This document shows positions 42,501 to 52,024 of a DNA stretch of 64,000 bases, piece after piece; the stretch's first letter is position 1, and every line of letters begins with the position of its first letter. The stretch spans positions 558,001 to 622,000 of the forward strand of contig NW_026570228.1 of NCBI RefSeq assembly GCF_019649055.1, read 5' to 3'. The notes below the pieces were generated by a model that had not been told where the DNA came from, ran no database searches, and was given only the letters and a program-made list of their open reading frames with translations. Source of the stretch: Paramacrobiotus metropolitanus (taxonomy: Eukaryota > Tardigrada > Eutardigrada > Parachela > Macrobiotidae). The position numbers and the translations under genes are program-made.

Positions 42501-45500
42501 TTGTTTTCATGAAATTTATTTGAGAAAATAATATGAAGTCGTTTGTCCCCCTTTTTTATGAAATTCATTTAAAAATTAATTTTTGACTATTTGTTTTTGT
42601 CTGCAGTTATATAAGGAAACCGCAAACGGCGTCCAGTTATCCCAGTCGGCAGATGCCAGCTGCAAGGCGGTTAATTCACCGACAGAAGGCCCGCTAACGC
42701 TCGCCATGACACGAGGTACGCTTGTTTAATTTTTTAATTATTGTTCTTCATTTATTTATCTTTTTTTCATTCACTTAGGATTTTTTTTAATTTCCATAAT
42801 AAAATTAACAATAAAATCATGCAGCGGTTATAAATTTTTTTAATAATTTCTGCGTAGAAATTTTCCCGCCTGCATTTATCATAAAACCGAAAACAGACGT
42901 TCTTAACAACTAAAAAATTTCGGTTTACTGATGACGATTTTTGATGGAATTTCCTATTTAATGCAAGATTGAGCTAAGATGTTCTACTTTTTACCGCTTT
43001 TTGCGGGTGGGATTAATTCGCATCCCTGCGAATGTTATCCCGGTTTGCGGGATGACGCAATCGGATTACGTTCCAGCTGTGGTTAACAGCAGATAAATTC
43101 GATAAGCCGCAGGATGCCGGTGACATGTGGTGTTGGCGTTTTGACTGTCTTCCCTTTTTGCTGCAGTGAGCGATCCCCAGCCGGAATGCATCTTCCCCAG
43201 CTGGCTGACGGATCGGGCCACGTGGCAGGATATGGCCGGGACCCAGCGCTACGTCTTCACGCCGGCCAAGACCTCCTTCCAGATCCTGACGGTCAACCAG
43301 ACCAGCGAGAAGCACCAGGTGCGCCAGGAGGCCACCTGTATGAACCGCGATTCCCCGGATGCCCCGTCCAGCTCCTGGTTCCGGGTGGTCACCCTGGTGG
43401 CACGCGGCTGGTAAATGCCGAATAATTCTATTTTTTGATTCTCGATAAAATTATCATTTGGGAAAGAATACAATATGGTAGTAGTGTTTTGTTATTGTGT
43501 AAATAAAATTGCTATTAATCTTGTAGGCGCCGTCATAAAGGTCCGTAATGTCTTAATGATATCGGATTTCGTAGTACAGTGGCGATTGTCCTGATACTGA
43601 TAGATATGACCGAATCATTCGCTTGTCTACAGAAATATGGAAATACACCGTAATAATAATAATATGTTATAATAATATCTTTCGAAAAAAGATATAATAA
43701 TAATATCTTTTTCCGAAATTGTTTTTGTTTGCCATTTGCTCAAATTTATGTGAAAGATCCTTTAAATAATTATTATTAATAAATAATAATATTTGTGGTC
43801 AGTTGGATGCTAGTAGTTAATATTATCTTCTGCGATTTGAGTTTAGTAGAAATTATTTGCGCGATAGTTCTTGTTAATCTGTCTCCAGAACGTGCTTTTC
43901 AGCCAATCCAAGTATATGAAAACGATTAGATACTGGAAGTAATAAAAATAATAATGTGTAATATAATTGGAAAAGATTAGATAATTCAAGTTTTGACTAC
44001 GCATTTTATAATATTTTAATCAGTTTACTATTTCATTATAGTTTGTTATATCTGTCTATGCACCTGTGTTAAATTATCATTTTTATTGTTCACAGTGAAA
44101 AGGGTTTCCGCTGCTACAACTGGCTGCGGCGTGCCGACCAGATTGTGCAGGTGCAAGAAGGCGAAATCAGTCGCTCGGAGGAGTTGGCCTGTTCGGAGGA
44201 ATTCCTCAACAACCGCACGGCGTGGACCACGCTGATCGCGCAGAACACGCAGTCCATCGCCTGTCCCTTCCCCGGCCAGTATCTGGTCTCCACGCCGCGG
44301 GATTTCGCCGCGCAGTGGCCGCCACGGGGGTACCAGCGCTGCAGCCAGATGACCAAGGTCACCATCGGCTGTCAGCGGCATTCCGCCGTCCAGATGCAGG
44401 CGCACCCGGTGGATGATGACTGTCCCACGGCGCCGGAAGACACCAATCCCAGTAAGAAAAAAAAGACCAGTTAAAGAAACTTAGGAAAGTTTTACTTCAG
44501 ATAATCAAGCAAATCACAAACCGCAAATAAATAAAGCTAAAATCATAAATAAGAAAAATCACTGTCTATTTGTTTTAATGAGCATTTTATTTTCTGATCT
44601 CGGTTCCGGGTTGTCTATTGGCACAATATTTACTGCATTTTATGCCTGCATTCTACGTTTTATTTACTTATTCTGCGGGTTCGGCTGTTGATACATCAAT
44701 TGGTATATATTGGCACATTCATCTACATTTTTTTGCCGTTTTCGTTTTTATGAAGTTTCCTCTTAATATTTCTGAACCTTGAATCAGTTTAATTGAACGA
44801 TAATTTAAGAATTGTGGTTCTGTCACTTTTATGTATTATTAGCGTTTTTTGCGCTGGCTTTTTTATACAGCCAGGGACATTTTTACGTTGGCTAACGATA
44901 TGATTAATTTTACAGTGCACTTCGCTTGTCATGGACACTGGATGGAGAATCAGATTGGCTATTTTGTGGCGACGGAAACGCGAAGCACGCGCAAGCACTG
45001 TTTTGTAAGTTCACTTTTGTTAACTAATGCTTAATAACTACAAGTACCAGAGTATAGTATTTTTTATTCATGCTGCAATTCTTGAACACGTCTGCGACTG
45101 TGCAGCAGTGTTACAAATGGAGGAATATCGTAGTGCGATGGCGCAGTTCATATCTGTCTTATAGCTAGTTTCATTGATTCGCAAGGATTTCTGTTATTTA
45201 AAAGCTTTGGCGCATCGTTTCCATGTCAAATTTTTTAAGTCTTAAATTAGAGCGAGCATAATTCATCTACCGTAGTTTTTATTTCATATTGCTTTTGATA
45301 TTAGAAATTTTATTTGCTCATCTTCCATCAGAGTTGCTTTAGATTTGATTGATATCTTTTTAATTAATGATCAGCTTCTTATTTGATATAAATAGACGAT
45401 ATTGATTTTGATTTGTTTTTTTTTTATTTTTCAACAGACCTATCAAATGGACAGCAGCGGTTTCGTCAGTCTGAGCAGTATTCCCAACCAGTGCCCGACG

Positions 45501-45647
45501 CCCACCAGTCTCTCCACGGTTGACCTGTTCAACGTCACCGAATTCACGGAGTGTGCCGCGGCGTATTCGTCGGGCTGGCGGATATTTCCGGTTTCTTGTA
45601 TTTGGCTAATATCCATCACGATGTTATTGCGATTTCATCGAGCCTAA
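27588..45647 (+). CDS. Cell-surface protein of the DUF7042/7043/7044/7045 type, 11 exons
   Basis: Exons: 27588-27648, 34964-35168, 40909-40979, 41051-41152, 41394-41558, 42022-42137, 42607-42715, 43167-43410, 44096-44451, 44916-45004, 45438-45647. All phases join, giving 575 residues. The leader MRLLMLLLSALCAGAA is followed by CEFPAGWQGQWFLMGFTGEI (DUF7044-like), then NCRQCIVAI..NIIQYKEG, LCDTITGNSELFTMF, ACPFGGRFSFTY, LECLAHWRDGEKQYLVGHI, CIFPSWL and IACPFPGQYLV, each with the paired cysteines I know from uncharacterised arthropod proteins carrying these DUFs. The final exon ends AAYSSGWRIFPVSCIWLISI.. with a hydrophobic tail of about 20 residues and a short basic end. This suggests a GPI signal or a single C-terminal membrane anchor. 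Function is unknown; an extracellular role is inferred. Introns 1 and 2 (7.3 and 5.7 kb) are far longer than others here. AATAAA at 45969. Confidence 0.85.
27649..34963. other. Intron 1 of the surface-protein gene (7.3 kb, AT-rich)
   Basis: The intron is mostly AT-rich sequence without supported genes. One exon-like segment at 28653-28812 reads YTNDKDAVKQWQYRIACRQN and then ETETIWECELLFKN, but it has no fit to the phases of this gene, so it is unassigned. A diverged tandem duplication lies at 29700-30238. Such length could host enhancers. Confidence 0.5.
29700..30238. repeat. Diverged tandem duplication (about 288-bp period)
   Basis: The copies at 29700-29966 and 29988-30238 share GTTAGA.TTTATATGC, then TAAATCCCTGT, GAATGCGCAGT.TT, and TTTCGGTTGGCTTTGCGA in the same order and spacing. 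Similarity is moderate, so the duplication is old. Confidence 0.65.
38838..38901. repeat. Perfect 31-bp hairpin with a 2-base loop
   Basis: The arm TTTGCAGTTTTTTATGTCAT continues to ..ATTAAAAAATG and is repeated exactly in reverse complement after GT. It is a very young or constrained palindrome inside intron 2. Confidence 0.9.
39888..40137. repeat. Diverged tandem duplication (about 125-bp unit)
   Basis: Two units share TCAGAACTGGGAATT (or CACAGAACTGGGAATT), ACAAGCA.ACCGTA.ATAAGCTGT, CAATC.GATAT.TT.CGTA.TA and GCA.CC. They lie head to tail within intron 2. Confidence 0.65.
43649..43720. repeat. TAA microsatellite with a small hairpin
   Basis: Runs of AATAATAAT flank AATATCTTTCGAAAAAAGAT, whose halves ATCTTTC and GAAAAAAGAT pair. 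Located in intron 8 of the surface-protein gene. Confidence 0.5.
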
Positions 45648-46651
45648 CATGGCAACACTACTGACGTCAGACTGCTCAAAACTGGACCAAAATCCTTGGC
45701 CGCTATCCTGTTGTTGACAACAGAAGAAAAACACCATATTGGTGATTAATGCCCGTCTGTGATATTTATTTGAACAAATGAACATGTTCTTCTCTCTACT
45801 GATTTGTGGATATGAAGGCAATACAAAGTTGTATCGGTTTGTTTGTTGTATTCGGCTGTACATAATTATGGTTTTATTTTGTTGTACTTAATTATGGTTT
45901 TATTTTGTTTGCTGTTTCTATCGCGAGTTTCAACGTTTCATCAGAATCTGCTGCCATTGATTATACCGAATAAAGTCTTGGTGATGTTTGCCGCTGAATG
46001 TATATCTGTAAATACTTACGGTTAATAATAATTAAAATAACAGCAAGTTGAATTCTGTACAAATTCTGTACAGCGCTCGTACTAGTAAGTATTAGGTTCG
46101 CTCGAGTACGTATGTGTAATCGTAGCGGCAGCACTCCGCGTCTCTTCAGCGTGCTGCGCGTTGACCGCGGTTCAAAAACTGTTCAAAGGTACGCGATGTA
46201 CAGTACAAGTGCTGCACGTACGATACAACGGATACATGCCATTAATTTAAAAGCACAGAGCGTATGTGTAAATAATTGTAATTATTATTATTGGTCGATG
46301 AACACTTGTACGTACGGTTCCATGTTGTGCCTCACCTGATGCTACCACCGGTAGTACATCGTAACTCGATTTTCCGGCCCATTATCCAGGGGCTCGTTGA
46401 TTTCAAGGAAAGCCCGTCATCAGGATGTCAGATCGCTACCACTCTACTTCGAACGTCAACGCTCTCAGTCTTCCGATATTCTGACGATTTCTAGATTGTT
46501 TGGTGCCCACCGTCTTGTGACCTTTAAATCTGTCTGAATATTTGATACAATATTTTTTCGTTTGGGCTTGCCCCGAAACCAGTACACGGTTCATAATATT
46601 TTGTGATTCATTTTTTAAGTCGTGTTTGAACGTGCTTGTCCAGTGTACAAC
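45648..46651. other. Spacer between the surface-protein gene and CPEB
   Basis: It holds a short tandem duplication of AATTATGGTTTTATTTTGTT (45865-45913), the AATAAA at 45969-45974 and the CPEB promoter region. No exon is supported. Confidence 0.5.
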
Positions 46652-49600
46652 ATGGCGCAGAAGACCAACTCCTTTTTCACTGGTCTGGAGGATTCCTTTC
46701 GGGATCTGTCTTTCGACTCGCCTTCCTCCATCGCTTCGTTCCCTCCTGGCCAGTTCTCCGCCGCAGCATTCTCTGGAATTCGGAACATGGGTCAATCCGT
46801 CTCCCAGTCCGACGATGGAACGTGGCGTGCCCGTGTCACCTCCTCCGCTGACTCCGCTGGGACGCTTCTACAGTGGATCTCCCGACAGCTCCCGTGCAGC
46901 TCGAATGGCCATCCTGCGGGATTCAGGGAATAGTTATGTGGTCTGGAGCGGGACGCTGCCACCGCGAAACTGTCGCACAAACTCGCCGTTCTCCTGCAAG
47001 GTAAAGATTGCTGATAAACTGTGCTGAGGTCTCAAAATCTCTGTAGTCTCATGCAGATCGGAGCAGCAGTAGTACGGCGACGTAACCAGCCGCGTGGTAG
47101 AATATAGCTTTCTCTTTGTATTTCCTATTTTCCTCCTAGTAAACTGGGCTGGAGTCGTATGAATATAATTATTTAAAGCAGAGAAATTTCCGTATACGTC
47201 GCTAACAAAACTACGTACCATTTCCTTGTTGTGCTTTTGCTCGATTGCGATGGACTGATGTTTATGTTCTTCTGCAACACTGTGCACATTGATTTCAGGT
47301 ATTTTTGGGTGGTGTGCCGTGGGACATCACGGAAACGGACCTGCGGAAAACGTTCGGAGTTTGTGGTCCACTGCGCGAGGAATGGCCGGGTGTGTACGAT
47401 CACTCCTCAACGCAACATCCAAAGGGTCAGTACAAATGTGCAAAGTAATAGGGAAAATTACTTATCAGTCGTATACGAATGCATGGCTAACATGCGTTAT
47501 AACATAAAGCACATAATAATAGTTTTAAAAATAATTTAAAATTGAATGAATTTTGCGTGAAACATCTAGTCGTACATGCATTCAGTTGTCTTGATTTTGT
47601 GCAGAAATTATTAATAATTTTCATTTTTTCGGAGTGTCCAACGCAATTAGAACAACCAGTAGAAGGTTGATTTTGGTTGAGCATTGGCAGCTAATTTAAT
47701 AACATTTTCGGATTAAACTTGGCATGCGATTTCGATTTCATGTCATTTCAGCATTTTATGATACCGTTTTGAATTATTTTTGACAGTTTCGCGACATGTA
47801 TTTCCTGATCCATCAGCTGCCATCCTGCCTGACATTCTTTACTTTTTTATAGGACACCTGTACCTGCTGTTTGAAGACGAGCGCTGGGTGATGAAGCTGT
47901 TGGGCCGCTGCTCCTACGACGGGCATCACAACCAGAACAACTGGTTCTACCGCGTGGCCAGTCGACGAATGCTGGGCAAATCGGCGCAGGTCATCCCGTG
48001 GCAGCTGGCCGATGCCACCTACGCGCTGCACGGATACGTCCCCACTCCGGGCACACCCTACCGCATCTTCGTGGCGAATCTGCACGGGATGATCACGGCG
48101 GAGGGGCTGGGGCGGATCATGAACGATTTGTTCGGCGGCGTCATCCCCGCCACACTGGACACTGGTAAGCATCATTCAAGAATAACATAAAAAAATTTGT
48201 TCTGTGCAATGATAGATGGCAAAGGATCGGCGTAACGATGTTCAATTTTGGTAAAGCTAGTTGTTGTAGTGCAGTGGCTACCTATCACGGTTAGCTACTT
48301 TAATAGCGTTCAAGTTTGCTAAATGCATCTAATTTTTAATTCAACTTAATTTTTAAAAAAGCCATTGTTAATTCCTCTCGTGTTTCATTTCAGTAGGGTA
48401 TGTCGGTAATTGAGAGTAAAAAATTACTGTTAGCTGAGAACAGCGTTTCATTCGATACAGATAAGACAGCTGACAGAAAATTGCTGTAAATTAATTTAAA
48501 CCGTTTTTTTGACAGATAAGACAAAGTACCCGATCGGACCGGGCCGCGTCACCTTCAACAACCCGACCAGCCACCTGAAAGCCATCACCACGGAGACGGT
48601 GGAGATCCGGACGGCCAAGTTCACCCGCCAGATCAAGATCGACCCCTTCCTGGAGGACGCTGTGTGCAGCGCGGGATTCTTGTCCCAGTATCCGGCGATT
48701 GACGGGAGCAGCGGATATGGTCATTACAACAGCCACGGCGATGTATACCGCAGCGGCGGTTGCGGAACTGCAAGTGTGGCTGCGGGGTCCGGTCAGTGCT
48801 TGGTTGTCGTCGGTAGCGGTGGGTGTGGGGGTGAAGCGCGCCGCGAAGGACTGTTGCCGGCAGGTGGCGACGGACAGGGCGCAGGACACCCTGAAGGTGG
48901 AAATGGAAGCAGTGGTGGCCAAGCAGCGGAGGAGCAGCGACCGCGCCGTATGCGTTTCCAACTGCGTAAGAATTAGTAAAAAATTATTGTATTATAATTA
49001 TTATTGCTAAAAGCTTATTATAGTTATTGTTATCACTAAAAATATGTAAATAAAAAATATCATTAAGAATTATTATTATACAATTAGTAATCTTGTTTAT
49101 TGGTTTTTTGCAGACCGCACGCTGGCGTACCTGAATTTTCCGCTGGACAATGTGAACTGGAATTCCGACCCGCGGCCCGATGCCCAGTCCATCCTTGAGC
49201 GATTGGATGCGACGACCTTTCAGAACGCAATCGACACACAGATCGACCCGGAATACGTTGCCGGGGACGGACCCCTTGGGGTGGACTTCATTTTTTTTCG
49301 CCTGTTGCCGGGAATGAGCAACAGCGCTTCCGGCCGCATCCGGTGTGTATTTGATTATATATGTCTGTGATATGGCATAGCGATATTTTGCTAAAATTCT
49401 CTTCATTCTTAAATTAATAAAAAAATTTAAAAAAATTACCGGAAAATTCATTAAATTCAATTAAATAAGAAAAGGGTTTTTTTAGTTTTTATTAGTATTT
49501 TTTGTTTACATTTCACCGTGTTTTTTAATCCGCCAGCCATTACACTAGACCAAACTTACTGCAGCCAGCCCTACGCTTGCGCGCAGCATTTAATAATTGC

Positions 49601-49707
49601 GTCTTTGTTTAATTGTGTTATCTTTTTACATTTTTAGGGGATATCTTGCCATTTACCCAACGGAAGACTATGGGATCGACGTTGGATGTGAGGACGTGCC
49701 GGAATGA
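46652..49707 (+). CDS. CPEB: CPEB/Orb-type cytoplasmic polyadenylation element-binding protein (atypical C-terminus, two apparent frame breaks)
   Basis: It binds U-rich CPE elements in mRNA 3' UTRs and controls poly(A) tail length and translation. Exons 46652-47000, 47299-47425, 47853-48164, 48516-48965, 49114-49342 and 49638-49707. Seen: WSGTLPPRN, then RRM1 (RNP2 [15 protein letters not shown]1 GHLYLLFE), [21 protein letters not shown]2 ([37 protein letters not shown]) and [10 protein letters not shown]. This matches CPEB1/Orb more than CPEB2-4. Odd: the N-terminal frame from [16 protein letters not shown] must shift by one base near 46770-46800 to reach GRFYSGSPD. After EDAVC the usual ZZ zinc module with its Cys/His ladder is missing; instead about 180 unrelated residues follow, with a second apparent shift near 48740. 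Poly(A) signal at 49781. Indels in the assembly, a pseudogene or an unusual paralogue are all possible. The RRM part is certain. Confidence 0.85.
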
Positions 49708-49780: not shown

Positions 49781-49786
49781 AATAAA
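49781..49786 (+). terminator. Poly(A) signal of the CPEB gene
   Basis: AATAAA lies 74 bp after the TGA of the last modelled exon. This supports the last exon ([12 protein letters not shown]..) as the true 3' end of a transcript. Confidence 0.6.
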
Positions 49787-51244
49787 ACATTAATTGTCTG
49801 CGAGGCTTATTCGTATTAACACTTTTTCGTCTTAATTTGCACGGTAATTGTATTCCTAGAATTTTTTACTTACCTGATGGACGACGAGGGGAAGCTTCGG
49901 GCATGTTAGAAATGTTGCTATTAAAGAAAGTCAGTTAAAAAAACGAGGAAGTTACTCCACACTACACTTTTTGACGTTCTTTTTAAAGAATGCGGTTAAA
50001 ATACGGGACATACAATAGGAATTAAAACCAAATAGCGTCTGCCGCCAGTTAAGGTGTAAAATTATGTTATTTCAGCTATAAATCTAAGAACAAAAAAACT
50101 GGCTTTAGTTCCAATGAGCACTGGACAACGTGCTAATGTCATTTTCGCTAGTTTCTTGATTACGCACGCGAGCGGGGGTTGGAGGAAATCGGGGTTTATT
50201 TGTGTAAGTACGATATTGTTGACACAACGTATTAAAGCCTAAACCGCGGCCACCGGATATCAAATTGTACTCCAAGAGCACAATACGCAATAATTACCTG
50301 TGCGAAAGTAAAAACAAATTGCGCTAGCAGGAATAGGAAAAAGATATGTGATTAACAATCAAGAAAGTAAATTATCCATCGTAAAACATCCATCTATCGC
50401 AAAATTATTCAGTACGTACTTGCACTGTGATTAGGCAGGGGCATGAATGTACCGCTTCTTTCGCGAATAAAATGCAGTGATTTATTTTTTGGCGTGAAAA
50501 CGCTGATTAAAACATCTGAGGCATAACGCACAAAATTTTACAAAAAATTATTAAGTGCAGTGAAATTGAATGCAGTAGGGCAATTATGGGTAAGGGTAAA
50601 GTGCCGCTAGATTTATCGTTAACGCATACCGCTATCGGTGCGCCCACATGTTGTTGCTTTCCTGTATGCACACTGCACAAAATCAAATCTCACGTTTGAT
50701 ACGGTTTTTCATTTCAATTTGGAAATAAATTTTAGATCAAGAAACTCATTATTTATCGTCAACTTTAACGATATGAACTTGAATTGAATTTAATTACACA
50801 TTACTGTAACGCTTTCTCAATACATCATCATGTGGAGGTCGCTGCCTTATATGTTTTATGGATGTGTTATCTTTATGATTATAACGCAAGTTACTAGCTC
50901 GTTTGCTTATGCTTCTATGGCACGTTTTGTTTAGTTTAGTTTAAAGCTTTTTTCAGACAAATTTAGAGGATGTGTTAATCGTGGCAGTTGGCAGTAAAAT
51001 TCACCTACATATACACGCGAAAGGGCATAAAACGCATAACACGCATTCCATTTATGGAACGGAAGTCTGGGCTGAGAGCGCATAATATTTGTGGAATGTG
51101 CACGGCAAAACAGAATATGTATAAGCGGCAGCACTGATATTATTATTGTTTAATTTCTTTCAAAACGTATCAATTATAATCAACAGTCTAACAGATTTTC
51201 AGATTTTGGTTAAAATTTTGTACTGCCGCTCTTAATTTTCAGTA
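49787..51244. other. Gene-free stretch
   Basis: AT-rich spacer. I see no exon, RNA gene or clear repeat. Confidence 0.4.
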
Positions 51245-51749
51245 CTGTATTCGCTCGCACATCTTGAACCACAGAGTGTGTGTACGGGAAAAACACGCAT
51301 TCAATATACACACTCTAACCGGGCAAAATGCACGACTACGAAATATTGCTCATTTGGTTTCAAGATGAACAGTTCTTCTTGTGAATTTATCCAATAAATC
51401 AAGACTTTTCATTTAAATGACAGTTCACTCTGAAAAAAGGTTTCTGGAGCTGTTATCTAATTATCGCAGTTCAAGCTATTGATGCTCTACGGGGCAGTAA
51501 ACCACAACAAATCAGTTTGTAACTCGTGCTTACAAAATGTATAATGGCTGCATGACATAACATGGTTAAAAATTCTTAGAGCTCTAACTTTTTTTAATAT
51601 TCAAGAAGTTCTCCACAGCAGATGTTGCAAAGACATCAGAAATTTATCAAATCGCGAATCGCGCATTTCGCCCGGTTAGAGTGTGTATATTGAATGCGCG
51701 TTTTTCCCGTACACACACTCTGTGGTTCAAGATGTGCGAGCGAATACAG
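51245..51749. mobile_element. TA-flanked MITE with about 93-bp inverted repeats (505 bp)
   Basis: The left end CTGTATTCGCTCGCACATCT.. through ..ACACTCTAACCGGGC is matched in inverse at 51657-51749, ending CGAGCGAATACAG, with TA on both outer sides (51243-51244, 51750-51751). The 320-bp middle has no coding content. Tc1/mariner-type non-autonomous element. Confidence 0.85.
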
Positions 51750-52024
51750 TATTTCCGTTGTGCGATAGCCGGTGTTGATGTTAAGTAATAATAGGGTTGG
51801 CACATAAAAATCGGATCTTGTTCCATACTCGGAATTTATCAAATTTTATTGTATTGCAGTTGCAGCATTTGTAGTAAAAAAAAAGCTGGAAGCCACGCAA
51901 TGATTTTGACAGCGCCACATAATGGCGTAACGGACAGTCTCCATGTTTCGGAGACTAAGCAACGCTGGCGGAAACCAGTGTCATGCTGTTGGAGAAGTGT
52001 CATGTCTTATCTATACTGGTATGT

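Follow-up and report, generated by a model that had tools for sequence, protein, structure and literature searches.

Gene model and C-terminal tail

The window, the whole stretch of 64,000 nucleotides of Paramacrobiotus metropolitanus DNA that was analysed (C8:558001-622000 of a 169.8-Mb genome), contains a predicted six-exon gene of the CPEB1 type, whose exons and related features are given in Table 1. A Pfam scan of its product returns RRM_7 (2.1e-22) and RRM_1 in two stretches, so that two tandem CPEB-type RRMs are present. By phmmer, the segment from VFLGGV to EDAVC matches the tandem-RRM structure of CPEB1 (2mkh; E 1.8e-58, 195/197 residues), with CPEB4 at 2e-29, and as judged solely by these phmmer E-values the RRMs appear to be nearer to those of CPEB1 than to those of CPEB2-4. 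Like members of the CPEB1/Orb family (RRM1-RRM2-ZZ), the window gene has both RRMs and keeps the DPxLED.xC end of RRM2, found here as DPFLEDAVC at 48641-48667; unlike them, it continues into a linker and a further module, with no ZZ detected. On both the retained DPFLEDAVC and the missing ZZ, the first-pass annotation is thus upheld. Upstream of the gene, at 44097-45650 on the + strand, Cys-containing exons, perhaps coding for a secreted protein, were noted by eye, and behind it lies an inverted repeat (51243-51335 and 51659-51751; 93 bases, 97% alike) that is MITE-like by eye.

In animal CPEBs the conserved C-terminal region includes the ZZ, according to two papers (PMC10284499, PMC9465852). 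In the whole protein of the window gene, no CEBP_ZZ match was found by Pfam up to E 10, a range in which the HMMER filters drop most matches above 0.1; the same scan gives CEBP_ZZ at 1.1e-21 in a sister gene at C8:765 kb (L029), where the ZZ shares an exon with the end of RRM2. DNA similarity between the two genes ends at 48670, three bases past the retained Cys codon (BLAST), and exon 4 of the window gene stays open in frame through 48965, up to a donor GTAAGA. A second ZZ-bearing CPEB, for which a check had been proposed, does exist: a genome search located CEBP_ZZ at six places, one of them the intact sister at C8:765 kb and none within the window. The nearest ZZ lies ~158 kb from the window gene and inside its own intact gene, so splicing of a ZZ exon from elsewhere to RRM2 is not indicated. 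One candidate way of accounting for the missing domain was rejected. A frameshift in exon 4, with an assembly error hiding a ZZ, was hinted at by a GC3 pattern in the linker that pointed to another frame; it is opposed by the paralogues, which back the RRM frame, and by BLAST, which finds no similarity of the linker DNA to the ZZ of the sister beyond 48670.

In place of the ZZ, a Gly-rich linker and a module of about 98 residues are predicted to follow RRM2. Counted from behind the Cys of DPFLEDAVC, this tail has 198 residues, 100 in the linker (a count that includes the codon split over the intron; Gly 26/100) and 98 in the module. The first estimate of about 180 residues is corrected accordingly, while the tail itself is confirmed to be in frame and to extend over two further exons, which join at phases 1 and 2 and have a poly(A) signal behind them. 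Of the three frames, the one tied to the RRMs (phase-1 donor) scores best for the linker in 6/6 pairs of four copies, most clearly with 98 vs 20 and 6.5 and with 106 vs 20 and -1; the close pairs, both with L026, give 63.5 vs 48.5 and 62 vs 49.5, the latter being the least clear (shuffled mean 39.7). The module recurs in three other copies with 39-48% identity to that of the window gene, the alignments leaving out a broken fourth copy; 15 or 20 positions are invariant in the two alignments, none of them Cys or His, so that the ZZ ligand set (six Cys, two His) is absent from the tail alignments. In four copies exon 4 joins exon 5 at phase 1, in L027 only by way of an inner acceptor placed by eye, and all five joins of CPEB to tail are in frame with the linker. 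As the linker frame is best in every pair and the module recurs in other copies, the tail is not a chance open frame. It was under protein-level constraint, because tails akin to it stand behind CPEB pieces in four other copies; its earlier description as spread over two further exons is borne out. With its end PRQIRF(R/Q)L, the linker resembles the end of CPEB2-4 proteins; the array described below is of the CPEB1 type, and we take the likeness to be chance.

Table 1. Features of the window gene and of related copies on C8 (window positions unless C8 is given)
Feature	Position	Strand	Basis or remarks
CPEB1-type gene, six exons, 457 codons + stop	46815-49707 (C8:604.6-607.8 kb)	+	GT-AG introns, open frame
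Ancestral start ATG and its frame, 93 codons, now out of frame with the RRMs	46652..46933	+	2-base deletion relative to three sister copies
Exon 1 from in-frame ATG, N-terminal region ahead of RRM1	46815..47000	+	Donor GTAAAG, phase 0; A at -3, G at +4 of ATG
Exon 2, first part of RRM1	47299..47425	+	GT-AG sites, phase; Pfam RRM_7
Exon 3, remainder of RRM1 and start of RRM2	47853..48164	+	phmmer to CPEB1 structure 2mkh, E 1.8e-58
Exon 4, first part, RRM2 end through DPFLEDAVC	48516..48667	+	Reading frame, phmmer; DNA similarity to ZZ-bearing sister stops at 48670
Exon 4, remainder, Gly-rich linker with RPRRMRFQL at its end, at the place of the ZZ domain	48668..48965	+	Frame kept in 6/6 pairs of four copies; no CEBP_ZZ
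Exon 5, main part of C-terminal module	49114..49342	+	Phase-1 acceptor and phase-2 donor; relatives of this exon at C8:681, 704, 743 kb
Exon 6, module end and stop (49705-49707)	49638..49707	+	Phase 2 join; profile finds related exons at C8:649, 681, 714, 744 kb
AATAAA poly(A) signal	49781..49786	+	74 bases behind stop
L024, CPEB exon 3 fragment	C8:623101-623537, just past the right edge of the window		No ZZ or tail found
L025, tail copy	C8:647-650 kb		Without exons 1-3; exon 5 broken
L026, tail copy	C8:680-682 kb		4-base insertion in exon 3
L027, tail copy	C8:704 kb		Exons 1-2 and the greater part of exon 3 missing; exon 5 needs inner acceptor placed by eye
L028, tail copy	C8:742-744 kb		Open 370-residue frame; without end of RRM1 and all of RRM2; full linker and module
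L029, ZZ-bearing sister	C8:765 kb		Intact ZZ, six Cys and two His by eye; no tail seen

Tandem array of CPEB copies on C8

CPEB pieces are found at seven places on contig C8 over ~160 kb, at 605 (the window gene), 623, 647, 680, 704, 742 and 765 kb; they comprise one gene with an intact ZZ (765 kb), one bare fragment (623 kb) and five copies with linker and module. The original view of one gene with a single exchange of its tail gives way to a tandem family whose tail predates the RRM sequence now joined to it and of which several members are broken. Three of the four sister tail copies (L025, L026 and L027) are broken. In the fourth, L028, the RRM_7 match covers 72/94 positions, and Pfam finds no CEBP_ZZ up to E 10, with most matches above 0.1 dropped by the HMMER filters. 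A lone exon 6 at C8:714 kb, 10 kb on from exon 5 of L027, apparently belongs to that copy. Directly behind exon 5 of L027, from C8:704.9 kb onward, a minisatellite of GTCAGAACGTTAGAAC-like units was seen by eye, and ahead of the ZZ-bearing sister ~350 bases (C8:762593-762944) form their own inverted repeat at 77%.

Within a 211.5-kb stretch (1.5 kb missing), a module profile found no additional complete copy; of its weaker matches, at E 0.5 to 10, the one at 656.6 kb was inspected. Three module proteins, used as queries against the whole genome, matched in this array only, and the linker of L027, used likewise, matched only L027 and L025, the first look of both kinds of search being able to miss diverged copies. 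The module falls into no accepted Pfam family (one DUF1961 match at 0.22 for 1/4 members) and has no match in NCBIfam or in phages, and of 23 pattern matches in bacterial and archaeal genomes 0 were confirmed. The tail has so far been seen only in this array of gene copies.

The five other ZZ-bearing CPEB loci lie at C18:329-332 kb (L005), C18:637 kb (L001), C8:1740 kb (L002), C89:127 kb (L003) and C26:1296 kb (L006); by eye, L006 seems to be of the CPEB2-4 type, and L001 and L002 are CPEB1-like, so that CPEB1 may have expanded in this genome.

Origin of the tailed gene

Over exons 1-4 pooled, the window gene and the ZZ-bearing sister differ by a dS of 0.154 and a dN of 0.037 (ratio 0.239, bootstrap 0.12-0.46; 259 codons), with dN/dS of 0.84, 0.20, 0.07 and 0.40 for exons 1 to 4, respectively. 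In contrast, nine of the ten module pairs have a pS of 0.74-0.87 and a pN of 0.34-0.51, with synonymous sites near saturation (32 to 91 codons a pair); for the tenth pair, L025/L027, pS is 0.38 and pN is 0.13. Since the modules are near saturation at sites where the RRM exons have changed so little, the tails diverged long before the attached RRM sequences did. For exon 4 of L027 and L025, over 47-48 codons, the ratio vs other copies ranges from 0.4 to 1.6. L026 is a mosaic relative to the ZZ-bearing sister, with a dS of 0.03 in exon 3 (86/104 codons) and of 0.41 in exon 4. By BLAST, introns 1-2 of both the window gene and L026 align with those of the sister and intron 3 of neither does, though the flanking exons align, a patchwork of exon and intron similarity that fits conversion tracts.

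The explanation that we tentatively favour, at somewhat less than an even chance, is that an old fusion of CPEB and tail had its RRM half rewritten by exchange with the ZZ gene and that its product is probably a CPE binder without ZZ partners. A CPEB1-type gene would first have been joined to the linker and module long ago. Later, the RRM half from the promoter side to exon 4 would have been overwritten by gene conversion or unequal exchange with the 765-kb sister, and the exchange would have halted where homology halts, which is at the joint. Counted against this explanation are the out-of-phase ancestral ATG at 46652, the broken state of L025, L026 and L027, the lack of RRM2 in L028, and the four different joint points among the copies, which also fit separate captures.

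That the window gene is instead a decaying duplicate, one of several dying CPEB copies with a formerly functional tail and no useful protein now, deserves serious consideration, although the balance is against it. Two bases are lost in exon 1 relative to three sister copies, which throws the old start out of frame; this ancestral ATG has a good context, and its frame runs into that of the RRMs in another phase. Translation of the RRMs would thus be poor unless transcription starts below 46652 or scanning is leaky. Decay also accords with the damage in L025, L026 and L027, with the bare exon-3 fragment at 623 kb and with the dN/dS of the broken L026 vs the ZZ-bearing sister (0.32; 0.15-0.65). 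Because this frame-broken copy gives a similar ratio, and the ratio does not assign the constrained branch, the low dN/dS of the window gene offers weak evidence of present function. Decay is opposed by the window gene being the only one of the five tail copies that keeps both RRMs, a whole open tail and all splice sites, and by its in-frame ATG at 46815, which has a good context and is absent from the three aligned sisters.

It is unlikely, in our estimate, that a CPEB-free tail family came first and that 5' halves of the ZZ gene were joined to it several times, an origin that would be compatible with the other readings. Similarity to the ZZ gene does break off at four points (766161 for the window gene, 766187 for L026, 766142-766143 for L027 and L025 and 765121 for L028), and the tails are far older than the fronts. 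However, all five joins being in frame with the linker is not what repeated independent joins would be expected to give, no tail without CPEB pieces was found, and an unaligned intron 3 between aligned exons (BLAST) suits patchy conversion better than capture of a block.

Descent of the module from a Polycomb group RING finger protein (PCGF/BMI-1), namely from its RING and the region behind it with loss of the cysteines, would likewise be compatible with the other readings, and we consider it very unlikely. Up to E 10, the PDB matches of a four-row module profile are nine sequences, eight of them named BMI-1/PCGF4 (or a chimera, or an old name) and the ninth named COMMD3 with the same residue range; they cover the last part of the RING and the following helix, and with the alignment reversed there is no match up to E 10. 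The best E-values of 0.053-0.056 are not significant, however, and did not gain from completion of an exon-6 row. A search of this genome with the BMI-1 segment, run without a positive control, found nothing, no RING is recognised in Pfam or NCBIfam, and the module has no invariant Cys or His for RING ligands. The resemblance is a lead, not a result. RAWUL matched at two places in this genome, both scoring under the curated cut-off (E 2.8e-5 and 2.3e-4), and in the longer forward-frame pieces at these two places no PCGF RING was recognised by eye; PCGF-like genes may well exist in this genome.

It is most improbable that, as the first-pass annotation had cautioned, exons 5 and 6 form a separate downstream gene whose join to the CPEB exons is merely predicted: a message could end in intron 4, given the in-frame stop (48974-48976) and the AATAAA (49049) there, but exon 5 is without an in-frame upstream ATG, the linker, the recurring phase-1 junction and the module trail CPEB pieces in other copies, and the searches with three module proteins, whose first look can miss diverged copies, found no module off this array.

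Relation to known CPEBs and predicted function

A close counterpart of the window gene is L029, with which it shares the promoter side and exons 1-4 (97% identical residues in exon 3 and 92% in exon 4); L029 ends in an intact ZZ and has no tail, whereas the window gene has the tail. CPEB regulates egg mRNAs, and the RRMs of CPEBs bind the RNA. Under the old-fusion explanation, the predicted protein would bind CPE-type RNA via its two RRMs and would be unable to recruit ZZ partners, and the ZZ-less copy may compete with the ZZ-bearing CPEB1 paralogues or stand in for them in a rewired form, the tail providing other contacts. Altered recruitment of deadenylase or polymerase, as first suggested for this gene, can only be inferred.

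According to a study of fly ORB2 (PMC12774597), an allele with the ZZ deleted still binds target RNA, but many co-repressors are lost and targets are derepressed. Like that allele, the window gene has RRMs without a ZZ; unlike it, the window gene is natural, of the CPEB1 type and tailed, while the ORB2 allele is engineered, of the CPEB2-4 type and without a new tail. By analogy, a CPEB1 copy that lacks the ZZ would be a rival for the same messages or would draw others to them via its tail, an expectation that carries over only loosely because ORB2 belongs to the other subfamily. Among the papers listed by our literature search, none described a natural CPEB that lacks the ZZ and has a new tail, and none dealt with CPEBs of tardigrades.

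It is also conceivable, although decidedly unlikely, that the tail is what endures and the RRM half a cassette open to exchange, with an old array-specific module still expressed from whichever CPEB1 front it carries, that front being refreshed by exchange with the ZZ gene; on this view L028 would be an independent tail protein and the window gene its RNA-bound form. A natural, ZZ-less CPEB1 copy with another tail beside a close ZZ-bearing sister would be a natural experiment on the role of the ZZ and would be a case of a new domain architecture maintained by exchange within a tandem array.
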